NCBI RefSeq assembly: GCF_003697815.1
Contig: NZ_RDQG01000008.1
Span: 1 to 53,490 of the forward strand
DNA from: Halalkalicoccus subterraneus
GTDB taxonomy: Archaea; Halobacteriota; Halobacteria; Halobacteriales; Halalkalicoccaceae
Length of the DNA stretch: 53,490 nucleotides
Reading direction: 5' to 3'
The first letter of the stretch is position 1; the number at the start of each line of letters is the position of its first letter. A program made the translations under genes and the position numbers. Shown piece after piece: positions 42,388 to 51,959 of this stretch. Below the pieces are notes generated by a model. It did no database searches. It was not told where the DNA came from and saw nothing but the letters and a program-made list of their open reading frames with translations.

Positions 42388-42786
42388 ATGCGAATGGAAC
42401 TGCGGGTGTGCAAACACTGCTTCAACGGCGAGCACGGCAACCCGTCGAAGACGGCCGTCACCCAGGACATGGTCGAGTGCGCCAAGCAGGTCCGCGAGTA
42501 CAAGGACCTCATCGGCCTCGAGAGCCTGTACATCACGATGGTCGAGGAGGGAGATACGGGCGGCGCGGAGGCGCTTCCGGCCATCGTCGCGAGCATCGAG
42601 GGCAACCGGGTGAACCTCTCGGACACCCAACTCGTAATGGAGGACGCAGAGGGCAACATGCTCGTCTACCCCGAGCCCGAGGACATCCTCGAGGTCCTGA
42701 CGCGTAACCTGGATCAGATCGACGGGCAGACCCGAAACGACGTGATGGTCGACCTCTCGGAGGACTCGACCGAACTGGTCGGTTAG
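42388..42786 (+). CDS. Conserved haloarchaeal protein, N-terminal CxxC
   Basis: 132 residues: MRMELRVCKHCFNGEHGN (CxxC at 8-11) then an alpha/beta domain with ESLYITMVEEGD, NLSDTQLVMEDAEGNMLVYP and EDILEVLTRNLDQI. A single CKHC pair plus His could bind a metal as a dimer. ATG codons at 42388 and 42394 are both possible. Function unknown. Confidence 0.75.
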   Translation: MRMELRVCKHCFNGEHGNPSKTAVTQDMVECAKQVREYKDLIGLESLYITMVEEGDTGGAEALPAIVASIEGNRVNLSDTQLVMEDAEGNMLVYPEPEDILEVLTRNLDQIDGQTRNDVMVDLSEDSTELVG

Positions 42787-43469: not shown

Positions 43470-44465
43470 TCAGTCGTCCGTCCTACCGCCGTCCGTCGCG
43501 GCCGTGCGAGCCTCCTGGCGGCGCTGGCGCATGTAGCGCGCCCGGAGGACGTTACCGTACATCGAGAGGAAGAGGCCGATGAAGAGGACGAGGACCCCGA
43601 TGTTGATGCCGACGGTACGGAGGAGACTCCCCTCGCCGAAGACGATCGTCTGACTGATGGGGTAGCCGCCGTAGCTCATGCTCGCCAGCAGGATGCTCAC
43701 GACCCCGATGATCGTGAGCACGCCCATGACGTTGGTCACCCAGCCCCAACTGGGTTTCAGCCGGAGGCGCTCGATGCCGGTCACCGACTCGGACTCGGCG
43801 TCGCCGTGATACTCGGGCGTGTCGGATTTCGGGAGAAAGGCCTTCATCTCGACGGGGTAGAACGCCGGATGGAAGCCGTGTTCGAAGGTGTGAAACATCA
43901 CTCCCATCATCATGATCACGCCCAGCGCGCCGTGGAACGCGACGAACGCGATGACGACCGACTGTGAGTTGTAGAAGTCGATCAGCATCGTCTTCTGCCA
44001 GATGAGGAGCCCCGAAACCATCAACAACAGCAGTTCGACGGCGAAGATGGCGATCACACCCTTGCCCACGTAGGAGAGCAGCGGGATCTCGTCGGCCGAA
44101 TAGCCCGCGAACTGTCGGGCGTTGGGGTGGCGTTCGTCGGCCATGCCGGCCGCGAACTTCATGTCCTGGACGAACGCGGCGACGTCGCCGGGGGTCGGCA
44201 ACACTGCGGTGAGGCTGACCGAACCGCCCGCGCGCAGGAGCATGTAGAAGACCCAGAAGGCCGTCAGGAAGATCAGCGCGAAGCCCGCGACCCGGTGGAC
44301 CGCGAGCACGCCCGTGTTGCCGCCCATGAGTTCGACGAGCCACCACAGTTCGTCGTTGAACGCGACGGCGTAACCCGTGAAGAAGAGCAGGAACACCGTC
44401 AGCGCGAGCAGCGAGTGAAACATCGTCGTCACGCGGGAGAACTTCCCGTGGTCGAGGGAGGTCAT
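43470..44465 (-). CDS. Cytochrome b subunit of a formate dehydrogenase-type complex
   Basis: 331 residues, about seven hydrophobic segments. SRVTTMFHSLLALTVFLLFFTGY, LAVHRVAGFALIFLTAFWVFY and FVAFHGALGVIMMMGVMFHTFEH supply the membrane histidines expected for two b hemes (FdnI/HybB-like fold). It should pass electrons from the Fe-S subunit to menaquinone. Two extra C-terminal helices (~residues 255-310) extend beyond the 4-helix core. Its ATG overlaps the preceding gene as ATGA, so it is translated together with the Fe-S and catalytic subunits. Confidence 0.85.
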   Translation of the reverse strand: MTSLDHGKFSRVTTMFHSLLALTVFLLFFTGYAVAFNDELWWLVELMGGNTGVLAVHRVAGFALIFLTAFWVFYMLLRAGGSVSLTAVLPTPGDVAAFVQDMKFAAGMADERHPNARQFAGYSADEIPLLSYVGKGVIAIFAVELLLLMVSGLLIWQKTMLIDFYNSQSVVIAFVAFHGALGVIMMMGVMFHTFEHGFHPAFYPVEMKAFLPKSDTPEYHGDAESESVTGIERLRLKPSWGWVTNVMGVLTIIGVVSILLASMSYGGYPISQTIVFGEGSLLRTVGINIGVLVLFIGLFLSMYGNVLRARYMRQRRQEARTAATDGGRTDD

Positions 44466-44938
44466 TCGGCGTCACCCCCACAGGTGGTGTCGCTCGCGGA
44501 GTCGGATCGCTCGCCCCCGTCCGTCGCGACCGCGTCGCTGTTTCGGCGCGGGGCTCCGTGCGGGCGCATGCGCGCGGCGAGCCGGCGGAAGGCGATCCAG
44601 TGCATGAAGATCATCACGAGGATGAACACGCCCATCAGCACGTCCGCGAAGTGGATCAGCGTGATCAGCCAGTCCAGGGCCGGCTTCGTGTTGCCCTGGA
44701 TCCACCCCGCGCCGACGCCGCCGCCCTCGACGGTCGGGCGCACGCGCTGGAGCGCCTCGAACTGGATCGCCCGGACGCCGATCAGCCAGACCGATCCGAC
44801 CGCGAGCGCCAGCGAGAGGACGGCGCTGATCCAGAAGGCCGCCCGATCCGAGAGCCCGCGGTTCCCGCCGTCGGACTCCGTACGCTCGTCGGCAACGTGA
44901 TCGGAGTCGCCGCCGGTCTCGGGGTCCGTGTCGCTCAT
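44462..44938 (-). CDS. Small membrane subunit between Fe-S and cytochrome b genes
   Basis: 158 residues from the ATG at 44938. Acidic N-terminus (1-30), then two hydrophobic segments: FWISAVLSLALAVGSVWLIG (~residues 36-55) and the longer LDWLITLIHFADVLMGVFIL (~92-111) continuing to VMIFMHWIAFRRL. Two histidines (LIHFAD, FMHWIAF) inside the helices could be heme ligands. ATGA overlaps on both sides show it is part of the operon. No family recognised. Confidence 0.8.
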   Translation of the reverse strand: MSDTDPETGGDSDHVADERTESDGGNRGLSDRAAFWISAVLSLALAVGSVWLIGVRAIQFEALQRVRPTVEGGGVGAGWIQGNTKPALDWLITLIHFADVLMGVFILVMIFMHWIAFRRLAARMRPHGAPRRNSDAVATDGGERSDSASDTTCGGDAE

Positions 44939-45609
44939 CTGTCGAACATCCCCGTGTCGTCGCCGAAGATGATCTCCATGGCGGTGTCGTTGAAGAACGC
45001 ACCGCTGTCGCGTTTCTCCAACTCGTCCGCGATCTCGCCGGAGGAACCCACGAGGATGGCGTCGGTCGCACACTCCTCGGCGCAGGCGGGTCCCTTCCCG
45101 ACGTCCTGGCGCTCCTCACAGCCCGTACACTTGTCCATCGTCCCCCCCGATCCGACGACCGCGGTCAGCCCCTCGTTCGATTCGGGGAACTGGGGCGCGC
45201 CGAACGGACAGGCCGAGAGACAGTACTGACAGCCGATACAGAGGTCGTCGACGACCTCGACGAAGCCGTTGTCCTTCTTCTGGAGGGCGTTGGTCGGACA
45301 GACCGACACGCAGGGGGCGTTCTCGCAGTGATAACACTGCATCGGGAGGCTCGTCTCGCCGGGGCTCATCCCCTCCTCGATCGCGCTGACCTGCTGACCG
45401 TTGAACCCGCTCTCGCCCTCGACGCCCTCGAGCATCGTCGTGATGTCGATACGCTGGTCGTCGACCGGGACGTCCCAGGTACGCTTGCAGGCGACCACGC
45501 AGCCGCCACAGTCGATACACGCCTCGACGTCGGGGAAGATCCGCATCCCCTCGCCGGTACTCATGACGCCCTGACCGAGTCGCTCTTGGGTCGATTCGTT
45601 CGCTGACAT
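44935..45609 (-). CDS. Formate dehydrogenase Fe-S subunit (four-cluster ferredoxin type)
   Basis: 224 residues. CIDCGGCVVACKRTW (~31-45), CYHCENAPCVSVCPTNAL (~92-109), CIGCQYCLSACPFGAP (~123-138) and CTGCEERQ...CAEECATDAI (~160-185) provide the four [4Fe-4S] sites of an FdnH/DmsB-like electron-transfer subunit. No Tat signal of its own; probably co-exported with the catalytic subunit. A 1-bp gap separates it from the catalytic gene and its stop overlaps the next ATG as ATGA. Confidence 0.92.
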   Translation of the reverse strand: MSANESTQERLGQGVMSTGEGMRIFPDVEACIDCGGCVVACKRTWDVPVDDQRIDITTMLEGVEGESGFNGQQVSAIEEGMSPGETSLPMQCYHCENAPCVSVCPTNALQKKDNGFVEVVDDLCIGCQYCLSACPFGAPQFPESNEGLTAVVGSGGTMDKCTGCEERQDVGKGPACAEECATDAILVGSSGEIADELEKRDSGAFFNDTAMEIIFGDDTGMFDR

Positions 45610-45610
45610 T

Positions 45611-48600
45611 CTAGTCGTCCCCCGTCTGTGGTTGCATGCTCTGGTTTCTGACGTCCCACTCGTAGGAGTCGCCGAGTCCGGCCTCCTCCTGTGGGTAGTC
45701 GATGACCTCCATGTTCAGTTCCTCGATGCGCTGTTCGGTCGCCTTCTCGACCCGGACGAGTCCCGCCTTGGTCTCCTGCATCTGCGTCTCGGCGTCGAAC
45801 CCACTGGAGGTGACGAAGTTCGCGCTGTCGCCGATCGCGAGCGGCTTCGATCCCTCGGGGTACTTGTCGCTCATGTTCTGCCCGTGGGCGATCCCGCCCC
45901 AGTGATACGGCAGGAAGACCTCGTTACCGCCCTGTGGGCGGTAGGTGACCTTCGCTTTCACGAGAATCGAGCCCTTGTCGGCGTCGGCGGAGGTGATGAT
46001 GACGTGGTCCTCGCCGCCGACCAGATCGAGGTCCTCGGCCATGTCGGGGTGGATCTCCGCGTACATGTGGGGCTGGAGGTCGGCCGTATAGGGGTTGTTC
46101 CGCGTCTCGGCGCCCCCGCCCTGATGTTCGACCTGTCGCCCCGATGTGAGGATCGTGTCGATCCCCTGGTCGTAGGCGCGCTGGGTCGCCTCCTGCTGGG
46201 TCGCGGCGTTGTTCTGATCGAGCCGGAAGAAGTTGGTCTGCTGGCCGTTTGCGGGCCACTGCTCGGCCAGATCGGGCCGCGGGCTCTGGATCGGTTCGCG
46301 GTGTTTCGGGACCGTATCGATGAAGTTCCAGACGACCGCCCGTGCCCGGCCGCGTCCGGTCGGCGGGTCAGGTTGGGCGTTGTCGTACTGCTCGTAGAAC
46401 GCCAAGTTGTGGTCGTGGTCCCGCTGTTCGTTCAGCGCGGCCGCACAGTCGTAGATCGAGACGTCCTCGCGCAGCGCGTATTCCATCGGAATCGTCAACG
46501 AGGAGGCATCGGCCGGGTCCTCCGGCAGCGTCGTCGTGAAGCCCGGATACTGCGGGACACCGATGACCTCGCCGTCGAACCAATCGGGCTGATAGGACTC
46601 GCGAAGCATGTCCAGGCCCGCCTCGCCCTCCTGCTCGTAGGTCTCGGCGAGCGGGTACTCCTTGTCGACGCCCGTCGCCTCCCACTCCTCGGGCGTCGGG
46701 GCGTCGATACCCCAGTTCGCGCGGAAGTCGTGACCACCCTCGGCCGGATGGACGTCGTCGCGCCAGATGATCGGCGTCCCGGGATGCTCGTCGCCCCAAC
46801 AGGGCCACGGCAGCCCCCAGAACTCGCCGCTGACCGGCAGTCCCTCGCTGTCGGCCCGCAGCGTCTCGGTGCTGAAGGCGTCGTCGTGTTCCTTCTGGCG
46901 CTGGAGGCGTTCGGGACTCTGCTGGTAGCCGACCGTGCGCACCCCGAGGTTGATCTCCCGCAGCACGTCCTCGTAGGTGCTCTTACCGTTGTAGAGTTCG
47001 GGACCGCTCCCCCAGTCGAAGTGCTCGCCGAAGCCGAAGCGTCCGGCCAGTTCCTGCATGATCTGCAGGTCGGGCTTGGAGGCGTGGGCCGGCGAGGCGA
47101 CGGGTTCGCTCCACTGGACGGAGCGATGGGAGTTGGTCACCGAGCGGTGGTGCTCGTACTGGCTCGATACCGGCAGCAACAGGACGTTGTCGGCGTCGGC
47201 GTCCTCAAGCGTGCCGGCGACGGCGGGGAAGAGGTCGACGACCACCAGCAGGTCGAGCGCCTCCATCGCCTTCTTCATCTTGTCCATCTCGGTGATGGAG
47301 TTGGCCGAGTGGCCCCAGAAGAAGGCCATCTTCAACGGGTCGGGCTGGTAGAGGGTCGACTCGTGGAGCCGGTCCTCCTGCTGGAGGGCGGCCTCGTACC
47401 AGCGGGCGACCGACAGCCCGTCCTGGAGCATCATCGTCCGCGGGTCGATCTGGCGTTGAGAGCCGCCGTCCTCGGAGCTGCCCTGATCGGCGCCGCCGTC
47501 CCCACCCGACCCCCCTTGGGCAGCGGGATCGCCCGTCTGCGAGTCGGCCTCGGTTGGGGACTGGGAGTTCGGACCCGCGCCGGTGTCCTCGGCCTGCGAG
47601 ACGTCCTCGACGGCGTCGCTCTGTTCGGTCTCCGCCGATTGGAGTTCGCTTGCGGCGGGCGGGCCGCCACCGCCCGCGGAGAGCTGCTGCCAGATGTCGT
47701 CAGGCATCGTCGCGAAACGGTCGTGAAGGTCCCAGAAATCCGTCGAGCCGCTCGTCCACGGGCTCCGGTTCCAGACGTTCGTCCAGTGGACCCACGAGCC
47801 GGCCGCCGACACGGAGTAGTAGCCCGGTAGGATGGTGCTGTCGACGCCCAGATCGGTCGCACCCTGGACGTTGGCGTGTCCACGCATCACCTGCAGGCCG
47901 CCGCCGCTGCGGGCGGCGCTGCCCGAGGCAAGCGAGTGCAGCGCGTACGAGCGGATGTTCTGGGTACCGTTGTTGTGCTGGGTGCCGCCCATCGCCCACT
48001 CGATCTGGATGTTGGGCTTGTTCTCGATGATCAGGTCGCCGAGCTCTTGGAGCTGCTCGACGTCGATCCAGGTGATGTCGGCGACCGTCTCGAGGTCGTA
48101 CTGTTCGAGTTCGGCCTCGGCGTCGGGCCAGCCGTTGACCCGTTCGGAGAGCATCTCGTCGTCGAGTTCGCCCTGCTGCTCGAGGTAGTTCATCAGCCCC
48201 ATCAGCAGCGCCACGTCGGTACCCGGACGCATCCGGTAGTAGTTGTCGGCGTGCGAGGAGGTCTTCGTGTATCGGGGGTCGATCGAGACGACGGTCCCGT
48301 CCCTCGCTTGCCCCTCGAGGATGTGCTGCATCGCGATCGGGTGGGACTCGGCGGGGTTCTGCCCGCAGATGATGAGCAGATCGAAATTCCGGTAGTCGTT
48401 GATCGTGTTGGTCATCGCCCCGTAGCCCCACGTGTTCGAAAGGCCCGTGACGGTCGGGGAGTGACAGATCCGCGCCTGGTGATCGCAGTTGTTCGTCCCC
48501 ATGAAGGCCGAGAGCTTCCGGAAGGCGTAGGCCTCCTCGTTTGCGTGGTGGGCGCTTCCCATCATCATGACGCTCTCGGGGGTGTACTCCTCGATGATCT

Positions 48601-49009
48601 CGGCGTACTTCTCTTCGATGATGTCGTAGGCCTCGCTCCACGAGATCGTCTCCCACCCGCCGTCGACCCGGTGCATCGGCCGTTTCAACCGACGATCCGA
48701 GTGCTCGGTCTCGAGGATCCCCGCGCCCTTCGAACAGAGCGAACCGTTGTTGATCGGGTTCTCGTGCCACGGCTCCATACCGACGAAGGAATCACCCTCG
48801 GTGACGCCGCGAAAGCCACAGCCGACCGCACAGTAGTTACAGATCGTCTTGGTCATCTCGCCGTCCGGGGTGGTACCTTCGTCCTCGTCGTCGTTCTGGG
48901 CGAGGGTCTGCCCCGCCGCGCCGCCGCCGAGCGCGACCGCGCCCGCGAGCGCGCTCGCCTTCAGGAACGACCGCCGGTCGAGATCCAGAGAGACGGGCTC
49001 CGCACTCAT
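45611..49009 (-). CDS. Formate dehydrogenase catalytic subunit (Mo/W-bis-MGD, Tat-exported)
   Basis: 1132 residues. Tat signal DRRSFLKASALAGAVALGGG (residues 11-30). [4Fe-4S] ligands C57, C60, C64 (CNYCAVGC) and C92. The metal site is DHQARICHSPTVTG: Cys182 replaces selenocysteine, followed by His183, the FDH signature. C-terminal molybdopterin-binding domain with HGQNMSDKYPEG and VTSSGFD. Oxidises formate to CO2 outside the membrane and passes electrons to the Fe-S and cytochrome b subunits. Odd: an acidic Ser/Gly/Gln-rich insertion (~443-516) in the middle, and overall length ~300 above a typical FDH core. It follows a 24-codon ORF with an ATGA overlap. Confidence 0.93.
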   Translation of the reverse strand: MSAEPVSLDLDRRSFLKASALAGAVALGGGAAGQTLAQNDDEDEGTTPDGEMTKTICNYCAVGCGFRGVTEGDSFVGMEPWHENPINNGSLCSKGAGILETEHSDRRLKRPMHRVDGGWETISWSEAYDIIEEKYAEIIEEYTPESVMMMGSAHHANEEAYAFRKLSAFMGTNNCDHQARICHSPTVTGLSNTWGYGAMTNTINDYRNFDLLIICGQNPAESHPIAMQHILEGQARDGTVVSIDPRYTKTSSHADNYYRMRPGTDVALLMGLMNYLEQQGELDDEMLSERVNGWPDAEAELEQYDLETVADITWIDVEQLQELGDLIIENKPNIQIEWAMGGTQHNNGTQNIRSYALHSLASGSAARSGGGLQVMRGHANVQGATDLGVDSTILPGYYSVSAAGSWVHWTNVWNRSPWTSGSTDFWDLHDRFATMPDDIWQQLSAGGGGPPAASELQSAETEQSDAVEDVSQAEDTGAGPNSQSPTEADSQTGDPAAQGGSGGDGGADQGSSEDGGSQRQIDPRTMMLQDGLSVARWYEAALQQEDRLHESTLYQPDPLKMAFFWGHSANSITEMDKMKKAMEALDLLVVVDLFPAVAGTLEDADADNVLLLPVSSQYEHHRSVTNSHRSVQWSEPVASPAHASKPDLQIMQELAGRFGFGEHFDWGSGPELYNGKSTYEDVLREINLGVRTVGYQQSPERLQRQKEHDDAFSTETLRADSEGLPVSGEFWGLPWPCWGDEHPGTPIIWRDDVHPAEGGHDFRANWGIDAPTPEEWEATGVDKEYPLAETYEQEGEAGLDMLRESYQPDWFDGEVIGVPQYPGFTTTLPEDPADASSLTIPMEYALREDVSIYDCAAALNEQRDHDHNLAFYEQYDNAQPDPPTGRGRARAVVWNFIDTVPKHREPIQSPRPDLAEQWPANGQQTNFFRLDQNNAATQQEATQRAYDQGIDTILTSGRQVEHQGGGAETRNNPYTADLQPHMYAEIHPDMAEDLDLVGGEDHVIITSADADKGSILVKAKVTYRPQGGNEVFLPYHWGGIAHGQNMSDKYPEGSKPLAIGDSANFVTSSGFDAETQMQETKAGLVRVEKATEQRIEELNMEVIDYPQEEAGLGDSYEWDVRNQSMQPQTGDD

Positions 49010-49198: not shown

Positions 49199-51334
49199 AT
49201 GAAGACCGGTGCGTTCGTCTGCTCGTGTGCTGGTACCTGCGAGGTCGATCTCGAGGACGCCCGCGAGGGGATCGAGGGGGTCGACGTCGCCGCCAGCTCC
49301 GAGCTGCTCTGTGGGGAGAAAAAGGGGCTGCCGGCGATGGAGCAGGTCATCGAGGAATACGAACTCGACCAGCTTCTCGTGACCTGTCCCGAACCGGGAG
49401 TCCAGGATAAACTCGGCGGCGTCGCGGAGGACCACGGCCTCCATCCCGAGGCGGTCTCTTTCGTCGACCAGCGCGAGGCTGCGGGCTGGGTCCATCCCGA
49501 GGAAGAGGCGACCGACAAGACCTCGAGAATGGTCAACGCCCGTCGGGCGGGCCTCGAGGAGGAGGCGATCGCGCGCTCGATCTCGCGCGAAGCCGGCGAG
49601 CGCGTCGCGGTCGTCGGCGACGCGGAGGCCGCCGCCACTCTCTCGGAAGACGCCGAGGTGACGCTGATCGCCGACGGAAAGGAGTTCGCCGGCGTCGACG
49701 GGTTGGAGGACGTGACCATCGAGCGCGGGCGGGTCACGGGCGTCGCCGGCGAGTTCGGCGACTTCTCGGTCGGGCTCGAAGCCCGCGTGAGCGACGAGTG
49801 CATCTCGTGTATGAAGTGCGTCCACGAGGGTCCCGATGGACTGGTTACACGCCGGCCGGTCGACATCGCGCCCGATGCACCCGAGGGCGAATGGACCGAC
49901 GTCTGCCCGACCGACGCCATTGAGATGGACGGCGTCAAAAGGGATTTGGAGGTCGACCAGGTGGTCCACCCGGGCGGTGATTCGAAGGCACGCGGCGGGC
50001 GTATCGGCTACTACACCGACGCGGGGCCGGCGACGATGGCCGCCGCAGAGAGCCTTCTCGGAGGGATCGAAAAGCCCGACTTCCTCGACTTCGAGATGGA
50101 CGTCTGCGCCTCCGGCGAGTCGAACCAGGAGGGCTGTCGGGCCTGCTACGACGCCTGCCCGCACGATGCGGTCGCGAAACCCCGCCCCGACGAGGTCGAC
50201 ATCGACCCGATCGCCTGTCAGAACTGCGGGGCCTGCACCAGCGCCTGCCCGACCGGCGCGGTGAGCCTGCGCGAACCGTCGAACGAGCGCATCGCCCGCG
50301 AGGTCGAGGCGCTGCTCGGAACCGGCGCCGACCAGGGCGGCTGGTTGTCGAGAGCGTCCGGCATCGAGAAACCCATAATCGCCTTCACCTGCGGCGAGCG
50401 CGCCGACGACGCCCTGAGCGAGTTCGGTAAACGCGCCGCTTCCGGGGAGGAAATCGAGTACCCGCCGATCCTGCCCGTCTCGGTGAACTGTGCCGACACC
50501 GTCGGCGAATCCCACGTCGCCCACGCGCTGGCCTGCGGCGCGGCCGGCGTCGCGATACTGGGCTGTGGCTGTGACTGTCGTCACTCGGGGGCCGACCCGA
50601 AAGAGGAACTCGTCGAGCGGCTCAACCAAGCCACGCGGGACATGGGGCTCGGCGAACGGGTGGGCTTCTTCGCGCCCGAAGCCGGCGAGCCCGGAGGATT
50701 CGTCGAGTCGCTGTCGGCGTTCGAGGAATCGTTAGAGCCCTCGCCGGTCCCGGAGGGCGACCACCGCGCCGACGGAACGTTGCTCCACAGCGACCACGAA
50801 AATCAGGAGTTCTATAACCACGGCTGGACCCTCGAGAGCGTCCGGGCGATCCTCGAACACGTCGAACCCGATCGGGAGGTGATCCGCGGCCTTTCGGACT
50901 TCGGCCGGATGGAGGTCTCGGATGCCTGTACGCTGACCCCCACCTGCTCGAACCTCTGTCCGACCGACGCGATCAGGAGGACCGAGTGGGGTCTGGAGTT
51001 CAACCACGAGAAATGCGTCAACTGCGGGCTCTGTGAGGAGGGGTGTCCCGAGAGCGCGATCACGATGAGGGATGGGTTAGACCTCTCGCTGCTGCCGGAG
51101 AACCGCGCCGAGGAAACCGAGGAAGGCGAGGATCCCGCCTGGACGCAGACGTTCGAGGGCGAGATGCTCGAGTGTGCCCGGTGTGGCGACCCGTTCACGA
51201 GCGAGCGCTCGGCCGCGAAGATCGAGGAGGAGGTCGGCGATCTGGTTGCCGGACTGGCCCCGAGCGCCGAGGAGAGCGTCTTCAACTACTGCCCGGACTG
51301 CCGGGCGTACCTGCTCTACGACCGGGGGAACTGA
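49199..51334 (+). CDS. HdrA-like/MvhD-like multi-cluster Fe-S protein lacking the flavin domain
   Basis: 711 residues, cytoplasmic. In order: an HdrA-like N-terminus with CSCAGTC (8-14), LLCGEK, CPEPG and WVHPEEEATDKTSRMVNA (~96-113); a ~60-residue remnant VAVVGDAEAAATL where HdrA has its FAD domain; a [4Fe-4S] motif CISCMKC...CPTDA (~200-240); a 2[4Fe-4S] ferredoxin CRACYDACPHDA and CQNCGACTSACPTGA (~315-355); an MvhD-like domain IIAFTCGER...YPPILPVSVNC...ILGCGCDCRHSG (~394-465); a second ferredoxin CTLTPTCSNLCP, CVNCGLCEEGCP (~577-622); and a final zinc ribbon CARCG...CPDC (~658-700). Divergent from FDH and joined to a TorD-like chaperone. No known function; see findings. Confidence 0.85.
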   Translation: MKTGAFVCSCAGTCEVDLEDAREGIEGVDVAASSELLCGEKKGLPAMEQVIEEYELDQLLVTCPEPGVQDKLGGVAEDHGLHPEAVSFVDQREAAGWVHPEEEATDKTSRMVNARRAGLEEEAIARSISREAGERVAVVGDAEAAATLSEDAEVTLIADGKEFAGVDGLEDVTIERGRVTGVAGEFGDFSVGLEARVSDECISCMKCVHEGPDGLVTRRPVDIAPDAPEGEWTDVCPTDAIEMDGVKRDLEVDQVVHPGGDSKARGGRIGYYTDAGPATMAAAESLLGGIEKPDFLDFEMDVCASGESNQEGCRACYDACPHDAVAKPRPDEVDIDPIACQNCGACTSACPTGAVSLREPSNERIAREVEALLGTGADQGGWLSRASGIEKPIIAFTCGERADDALSEFGKRAASGEEIEYPPILPVSVNCADTVGESHVAHALACGAAGVAILGCGCDCRHSGADPKEELVERLNQATRDMGLGERVGFFAPEAGEPGGFVESLSAFEESLEPSPVPEGDHRADGTLLHSDHENQEFYNHGWTLESVRAILEHVEPDREVIRGLSDFGRMEVSDACTLTPTCSNLCPTDAIRRTEWGLEFNHEKCVNCGLCEEGCPESAITMRDGLDLSLLPENRAEETEEGEDPAWTQTFEGEMLECARCGDPFTSERSAAKIEEEVGDLVAGLAPSAEESVFNYCPDCRAYLLYDRGN

Positions 51335-51335
51335 G

Positions 51336-51959
51336 ATGAGCGACGAGGAGATCTACGCCGCCCGACTCGAACTGGTCGACTTCCTGATCGAGGCGCTGTG
51401 GGACGCGCCGAGCGAGGAGTTCGTCGGAACCCTGCTGTCGGGCGAGATCCGAACCCCCGAGAGCGTCGACGAGGACCTCGATACGGGCTTCGAGGAGCTG
51501 CGGACCTTCGTCGAGGAAAACGAGGGGCGCGACGTAGCGGCGGTCCAGCGGGAGTTGAACCGCGAGTACACCCGCGTGTTCGTTGGCCCCCGACCCCCGG
51601 TGATGGCCCACGAGAGCTACTACCGCGAGGACATGGACTTCTTGGGGACTGGCAAGGCCGAGGTCGAGGCGAGTTACGGCGCCGCGGGCTGGACCCCATC
51701 CGAGGACTACCCCGAGGAGGGCGACTTCGTCGCCGTCGAACTCGCCTTTCTCAGACATTTAATCGAGCGCCAGCGCAGGGGCGCCGAGGAGGCGTTCGGC
51801 TACGAGCGGGTCTTCGTCGAGGAACACATGACCCACTGGATCGACGACTGCGCGGACGACATCATCGAGTACGCCGACGGCGCGTTCTACGAGGCGGTCG
51901 GTCACCTCCTCGCGGGCGTCGTCGAGTTCGAGGCCGAACTCGCCGGCCAGATGGCCTGA
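51336..51959 (+). CDS. TorD/DmsD/NarJ-type molybdoenzyme chaperone
   Basis: 207 residues, all-helical. EYTRVFVGPRPPVMAHESYY (~residues 70-89), with the E-Y-x-R-[LV]F-x-G and P...ES[VY]Y pattern of the family, and FLRHLIERQRRG plus FVEEHMTHWIDDCADDI. Such chaperones hold the apo-catalytic subunit and its Tat signal until the Mo/W cofactor is inserted. The obvious client is the Tat-exported formate dehydrogenase encoded 2.3 kb away. Its ATG is 1 bp after the stop of the HdrA/MvhD-like gene, so the two are co-translated. Confidence 0.88.
   Translation: MSDEEIYAARLELVDFLIEALWDAPSEEFVGTLLSGEIRTPESVDEDLDTGFEELRTFVEENEGRDVAAVQRELNREYTRVFVGPRPPVMAHESYYREDMDFLGTGKAEVEASYGAAGWTPSEDYPEEGDFVAVELAFLRHLIERQRRGAEEAFGYERVFVEEHMTHWIDDCADDIIEYADGAFYEAVGHLLAGVVEFEAELAGQMA

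Follow-up and report, generated by a model that had tools for sequence, protein, structure and literature searches.

A conserved archaeal HdrA2 relative, apparently without a flavin site, that accompanies TorD and Tat-exported enzymes

The HDRL gene and its surroundings

The window, a stretch of 53,490 nucleotides from Halalkalicoccus subterraneus (contig NZ_RDQG01000008.1), carries a gene for a multi-cluster iron-sulfur protein, here called HDRL, in the company of genes for a TorD-family chaperone and a formate dehydrogenase (FDH) (Table 1). The reading frame is unbroken from the ATG at 49199 to the stop codon at 51332-51334 (711 aa) and the position of the start codon is kept in relatives. 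A pseudogene, a frameshift or an assembly error was considered and rejected, since the frame is open in relatives and the cysteines are conserved. The protein is named 'hydrogenase iron-sulfur subunit' by NCBI, a misleading annotation which is corrected here.

Table 1. Coordinates of HDRL, its domains and the neighbouring genes in the window
Feature	Position	Strand	Remarks
HDRL gene	49199..51334	+	711 aa; FAD-less HdrA-MvhD-ferredoxin-zinc-ribbon protein
HdrA-like N-terminal Fe-S domain	49199..49573	+	aa 1-125; C8, C10, C38
Degenerate beta-alpha-beta, putative FAD/Rossmann remnant	49589..49678	+	aa 131-160, VAVVGDAEAAATL...VTLIAD; without GxGxxG
Inserted single-cluster ferredoxin	49787..49933	+	aa 197-245; C201, C204, C207, C236
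Short tail of second half of FAD domain	49934..50092	+	aa 246-298
HdrA C-terminal double-cluster ferredoxin	50093..50326	+	aa 299-376; C303/C313/C316/C320, C340/C343/C346/C350
MvhD/FlpD domain	50375..50746	+	aa 393-516; C398, C431, C456, C460
Extra ferredoxin, foreign to HdrA2	50912..51070	+	aa 572-624; T580 where Cys expected
C-terminal zinc-ribbon-like CxxC...CxxC	51161..51313	+	aa 655-705; C659/C662/C698/C701
TorD/NarJ-family chaperone	51336..51959	+	1 bp past HDRL; Pfam PF02613, E 2.3e-25
Formate dehydrogenase alpha-like catalytic subunit	45611..49009	-	Tat signal RRSFLK; divergent from HDRL
Multi-cluster Fe-S subunit, FdhB/DmsB-like	44935..45609	-	
Conserved 158-aa FDH-operon protein	44462..44938	-	no Pfam match
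Cytochrome b561-type membrane subunit	43470..44465	-	
Conserved 130-aa CxxC protein c9	42394..42786	+	MELRVCKHCFNGEHG..., no Pfam match

The first-pass annotation had read the HDRL chain as an HdrA-like start, an MvhD-like domain, ferredoxins and a terminal zinc ribbon, and all of these parts were located by profile matches or by invariant cysteines. Residues 2-113 match HdrA 5-123 in 9sfi_A (i-E 2.7e-6), residues 298-374 match HdrA 572-651, and the Pfam FlpD model matches residues 393-513 (E 1.6e-16, 60.8 bits against a cut-off of 22.3). This last region resembles the MvhD/FlpD subunit of Hdr-Mvh/Fdh complexes (7bkb_F), with four cysteines invariant in haloarchaea, but in HDRL the domain is buried inside a longer chain and is followed by more clusters downstream. 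A sequence-based check revealed no export signal, twin arginine or membrane segment in HDRL.

Among 53 haloarchaeal sequences, C14 and C63 are the only cluster cysteines that are not invariant or nearly so. Complete conservation is observed for C201/C204/C207/C236 of the inserted ferredoxin, for the eight cysteines of the C-terminal HdrA ferredoxin (C303-C350), for C398/C431/C456/C460 of the MvhD domain, for C577/C583/C587/C606/C609/C612/C616 of the extra ferredoxin and for C659/C662/C698/C701 of the ribbon (each 53/53), and the N-terminal C8/C10/C38 are present in 52/53. For the C-terminal HdrA ferredoxin, the extra ferredoxin and the ribbon, the invariance of the cysteines extends to 20 non-haloarchaeal and 5-6 divergent relatives. 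The original inventory had comprised two double-cluster ferredoxins and had overlooked the inserted single-cluster module, which carries eight cysteines (two clusters) in 15/20 non-haloarchaeal relatives. Both double-cluster modules are present (303-350 and 577-616), but the last is short of one ligand: position 580 (50936-50938) is Thr in 53/53 main-family haloarchaea and Cys in 20/20 non-haloarchaeal relatives. In haloarchaea the T580 site is predicted as likely to hold a [3Fe-4S] instead of a [4Fe-4S] cluster, the second cluster of the module being a predicted [4Fe-4S]. By inference from the conserved ligands, haloarchaeal HDRL would contain a zinc site and about seven clusters, including one of [3Fe-4S] type. 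One ligand of the HdrA N-terminal cluster is supplied by the FAD domain of a partner subunit (PMC9012536), and in HDRL C14 (47/53 haloarchaea) or C63 (20/20 non-haloarchaea) may be the replacement fourth ligand. A divergent branch, c20, has lost the N-terminal and MvhD cysteines with its operon place unchanged.

The FDH catalytic subunit of the window contains a low-complexity insert rich in Gln, Ser, Asp and Gly at residues ~445-525 (roughly 47435-47677, minus strand), and matches to many FDH alpha relatives break at this insert.

Relationship to HdrA2 and the flavin site

HDRL was compared with HdrA2, represented by 17 full-length HdrA-MvhD fusions from other genomes of the same phylum. In profile-profile alignment, residues 1-523 of the HDRL family are colinear with the complete HdrA2, residues 1-781 (probability 100, E 7e-45), with the FAD block missing. 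About 230 residues (HdrA2 ~325-555), which include most of the FAD domain, are deleted, and a second gap affects the stretch past the first beta-alpha-beta, where HdrA2 carries a CSIC motif at 191. The GxGxxG motif is found in 16/17 HdrA2 and in 1/63 HDRL-type proteins. The deletion of the flavin domain, as originally claimed, is borne out by both results. Its remnant had been put at ~60 residues; in fact about 165 (roughly 131-298) separate the N-domain from the C-terminal ferredoxin, and consist of the degenerate beta-alpha-beta, the inserted single-cluster ferredoxin and a short tail. The lone HDRL-type protein with GxGxxG, L146, reads IVGGGAVGIKVA with an intact GGGAVGIKVA, and the remaining FAD domain is missing; judged from its sequence, it is a plausible intermediate of flavin-site loss.

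HDRL has the colinear N-terminal Fe-S domain and the inserted and C-terminal ferredoxins of HdrA, but its thioredoxin-reductase-like FAD domain is incomplete, without GxGxxG or the K409/E356 region. These two residues, which contact flavin N5 in the HdrA of M. thermolithotrophicus, belong to a region covered by the deleted block (~405-410 and 350-357 in L102). The score of HDRL against the NCBIfam HdrA2 model NF040770 is 118 bits, below the cut-off of 1100. The domain order from the N-terminus through MvhD is identical to that of HdrA2 (type Ia HdrA; NF040770). HDRL differs in the missing FAD block and GxGxxG, in its extra C-terminal ferredoxin and zinc ribbon (residues 525-711 have no counterpart in HdrA2) and, in haloarchaea, in the single cluster of the inserted ferredoxin. 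Since HDRL is colinear with HdrA2 minus the FAD block, it is, as read from this alignment, a descendant of HdrA2 (type Ia, HdrA-MvhD fusion) stripped of its flavin site, and not a new assembly of parts. With the FAD-binding part lost, this chain is unlikely to carry out flavin-based bifurcation; the same had been concluded at first reading, and the loss of the motif and the position of the flavin-N5-contacting block within the deletion agree with it.

HdrA and MvhD had also been described as separate proteins in methanogens. This is only partly true: many methanogens have a type Ia HdrA, in which MvhD is part of the same chain (PMC12054007). The idea that the HdrA-MvhD fusion is itself new was rejected, as type Ia fusions are already well known (PMC12054007), and because such fusions are common in methanogens it is the flavin loss and the C-terminal extension, not the fusion, that are unusual in HDRL. 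In a survey of ANME HdrA, the FAD-contacting residues were kept in all of its HdrA groups (PMC9012536). In a general reading of the scanned window genes and of the conserved neighbours of 80 loci, no hdrB or hdrC was recognised. HDRL would illustrate how an enzyme of electron bifurcation can be put to a different use once its flavin is lost.

Distribution, neighbours and changing partners

HDRL is present in 111/391 Halobacteria genomes, representing 43/86 genera, and full-length relatives occur in other classes of the phylum (E down to 1e-118). A plasmid search with HDRL returned two haloarchaeal matches, and a pattern scan of genome contigs gave matches in haloarchaea and in euryarchaeal MAGs. 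The FDH alpha of the window has a strong match in 87 Halobacteria genomes, and HDRL is present in 87/87 of them (Fisher p 3e-64, uncorrected for phylogeny); likewise, 26/26 sampled non-Halobacteria genomes with a Tat-type FDH alpha have an HDRL-type protein (again uncorrected for phylogeny). No HDRL-type protein was found in most genomes whose only FdhA is a ~40%-identical protein of ~690 aa. A Tat motif is present on 39/48 and 15/16 of the FDH alpha sequences, and the misses that were inspected resemble open reading frames called too short. Two genomes have two copies each, and there HDRL, TorD, FDH alpha, the Fe-S subunit and cytochrome b share the same cross-genus pairing (79-91% against 61-73%). 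This common pairing of all the members indicates that the module is inherited as a unit.

Gene neighbourhoods were read at around 80 HDRL loci. Haloarchaeal loci usually have, in this order and on the same strand, cytochrome b, the 158-aa protein, the Fe-S subunit and FDH alpha, with a divergent HDRL-TorD pair. TorD directly adjoins HDRL in 67/79 loci (49/59 in Halobacteria and 18/20 outside). In Halobacteria all such pairs are on the same strand, 43 with a gap of 10 bp or less and 32 overlapping. TorD may lie upstream or downstream of HDRL; the persistence of the adjacency while gene order varies argues for a functional pair. The remaining 10/59 haloarchaeal HDRL genes do not adjoin TorD, and some of these are in genomes with a second type of FDH further away. 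L042, L093, L058 and L059, described below, belong to these exceptions too, and so does L057 (G167:C42:20099-20308), where what is left of TorD is a fragment that overlaps the beginning of a shortened HDRL, an arrangement suggestive of a torD-hdrl pair in decay.

The other partners of HDRL change from locus to locus. For example, a few haloarchaea have a Tat PSR-type molybdoenzyme with NrfD, followed by HDRL-TorD and then by Mrp and/or MobA. On a Natronorubrum bangense plasmid (L183), TorD-HDRL follows a PSR-like molybdoenzyme and is flanked by ArsR and ArsDA, a context which suggests a respiratory arsenic enzyme. At L154 (7965-9953) HDRL has TatA on one side and a Tat [NiFe]-hydrogenase on the other, and the hydrogenase is followed by HycI, a CobW/HypB-type GTPase, HypF and HypA. 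At L058 and L059 it lies beside Sco1, a redoxin, a CcdA-looking protein and a heavy-metal P-ATPase, all genes for the assembly of exported copper sites. TatA or TatC is encoded near several FDH loci. Tat export and cofactor maturation are common to these settings, which share no single electron donor, quinone site or membrane subunit. At L042 and L093 HDRL is nearly solitary and accompanied only by c9; this small protein recurs at most haloarchaeal HDRL loci and is found beside HDRL at these two loci, where FDH is absent.

A possible role in the maturation of exported enzymes

The reading judged best, with a probability of roughly 0.55, is that HDRL is a soluble protein of the cytoplasm and works beside TorD, in a NapF-like role, in the Fe-S maturation of enzymes bound for Tat export. 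HDRL has no signal of its own and is coupled to TorD, and FDH alpha carries a Tat signal; HDRL would therefore meet FDH alpha before export. Together with TorD it would act on the catalytic subunit that has not yet been exported; in some lineages its clients would include other molybdoenzymes, or hydrogenases, that leave by the Tat route. It could provide electrons, Fe-S clusters or both, or else probe the redox state, in a step that would precede passage of the folded enzyme through the Tat translocase. The cytoplasmic maturation role is inferred, as would be any choice among cluster donation, reduction and proofreading. Against this reading count the ten haloarchaeal HDRL genes that do not adjoin TorD, the nearly solitary copies at L042 and L093, and a predicted number of clusters higher than that of NapF.

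Several known helpers invite comparison. NapF is far smaller than HDRL and is not derived from HdrA; the HydN/YsaA proteins are small, serve a cytoplasmic FDH and are likewise not HdrA-derived. NapF is a cytoplasmic protein reportedly required for Fe-S assembly of NapA before Tat export and, like HDRL, a cytoplasmic polyferredoxin encoded in the operon of a Tat-exported molybdoenzyme, with four clusters against about seven predicted in HDRL (PMC10609526). This likeness is functional and no homology is claimed. HDRL is genetically linked to a Tat enzyme and its chaperone, and its cytoplasmic location is judged from sequence. HydN/YsaA of E. coli, which enhance the activity of formate dehydrogenase H (PMC6004506), are ferredoxin-like helpers of an FDH, as is proposed for HDRL.

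FdhE and FdhD are also FDH accessory proteins, and HDRL belongs to neither family, as its Pfam matches include none to FdhD or FdhE. FdhE is associated with periplasmic FDH only (PMC10609526). FdhE (PF04216) was detected in 0/73 genomes, with the E. coli positive control detected, and FdhD (PF02634) in 0/58 haloarchaea. A 2023 review noted that halobacteria often have formate dehydrogenase without fdhD and left the proteins for cofactor insertion and sulfuration as an open question (PMC10609526). Replacement of FdhD by HDRL was rejected as the sole explanation: FdhD is present in 22/22 non-haloarchaeal HDRL genomes, and because the two coexist there HDRL is not a simple FdhD substitute. HDRL is nonetheless the companion that has been kept where genomes lack FdhE throughout and, in haloarchaea, FdhD as well. 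A named, conserved protein that is always present with exported FDH thus bears on the open FdhD question. If the maturation reading is true, HDRL could account for maturation of exported FDH in archaea without FdhE and, in part, in haloarchaea without FdhD. A wider proposal, made tentatively and at somewhat below even odds, is that flavin-stripped bifurcases of this kind form a new class of metalloenzyme maturation factor which, with TorD, would load or reduce Tat-exported molybdo- and tungsto-enzymes and hydrogenases. What is new is a conserved and apparently flavin-less descendant of HdrA2 with links to TorD and Tat export. No prior description of the HDRL-type family was found in the literature searched, which left out most subscription journals, and two papers on formate-using haloarchaea mention neither heterodisulfide reductase nor TorD.

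An electron-transfer role is the main rival. HDRL would then serve, on the cytoplasmic side, as redox partner to the membrane FDH complex or to quinol at the cytochrome b, and exchange electrons with soluble ferredoxin in either direction without bifurcation. A row of seven predicted clusters would suit such a wire, all the more as they include the MvhD [2Fe-2S] site, which in Hdr complexes takes electrons from hydrogenase or FDH; moreover, the perfect co-occurrence of HDRL and FDH fits a partner at the cytoplasmic face of the mature enzyme too. However, the FDH catalytic subunit is Tat-exported and HDRL has no membrane anchor, HDRL tracks TorD while the membrane subunits vary (cytochrome b, NrfD/PsrC-like and others), and the c20 branch occupies the same operon place without its N-terminal and MvhD cysteines. 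HDRL is thus probably not a respiratory wire, and this explanation seems doubtful as a whole. The first-pass annotation had offered 'wire or scaffold'; scaffold comes near the maturation reading preferred here, and the respiratory wire is disfavoured by the missing signal and membrane segment, by TorD being the constant partner in place of any one electron-transfer or membrane subunit, and by the presence of HDRL in an operon for hydrogenase maturation.

HDRL as a sensor, reporting electron or metal status and regulating expression or export of the FDH module, would be in keeping with its predicted [3Fe-4S]-type site, its C-terminal zinc ribbon and the lack of any recognised remaining enzyme domain. 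This is the least probable of the readings considered, since a domain scan of HDRL found no DNA-binding or signalling domain and the coupled neighbour of the protein is TorD, not a regulator. Electrons might instead enter HDRL from a nearby AOR-like tungsten enzyme, in the way that Bam or AOR complexes use HdrA/MvhD-like subunits, and most of the haloarchaeal regions around HDRL do contain an AOR-like gene (39 genes in cluster c6). Such a partnership is very improbable, as this gene is usually several genes away from HDRL, was not recognised in non-haloarchaeal loci and encodes a protein without the cysteine ligands of the AOR [4Fe-4S] cluster.

The AOR-like protein deserves a remark of its own. 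At L098 it is encoded downstream of DUF7124, past the right end of the window, and with its 34 relatives it has lost both the CxxC..C ligands and the distal cysteine. With these ligands gone, it may bind tungsten or molybdenum but lack the usual [4Fe-4S] cluster.
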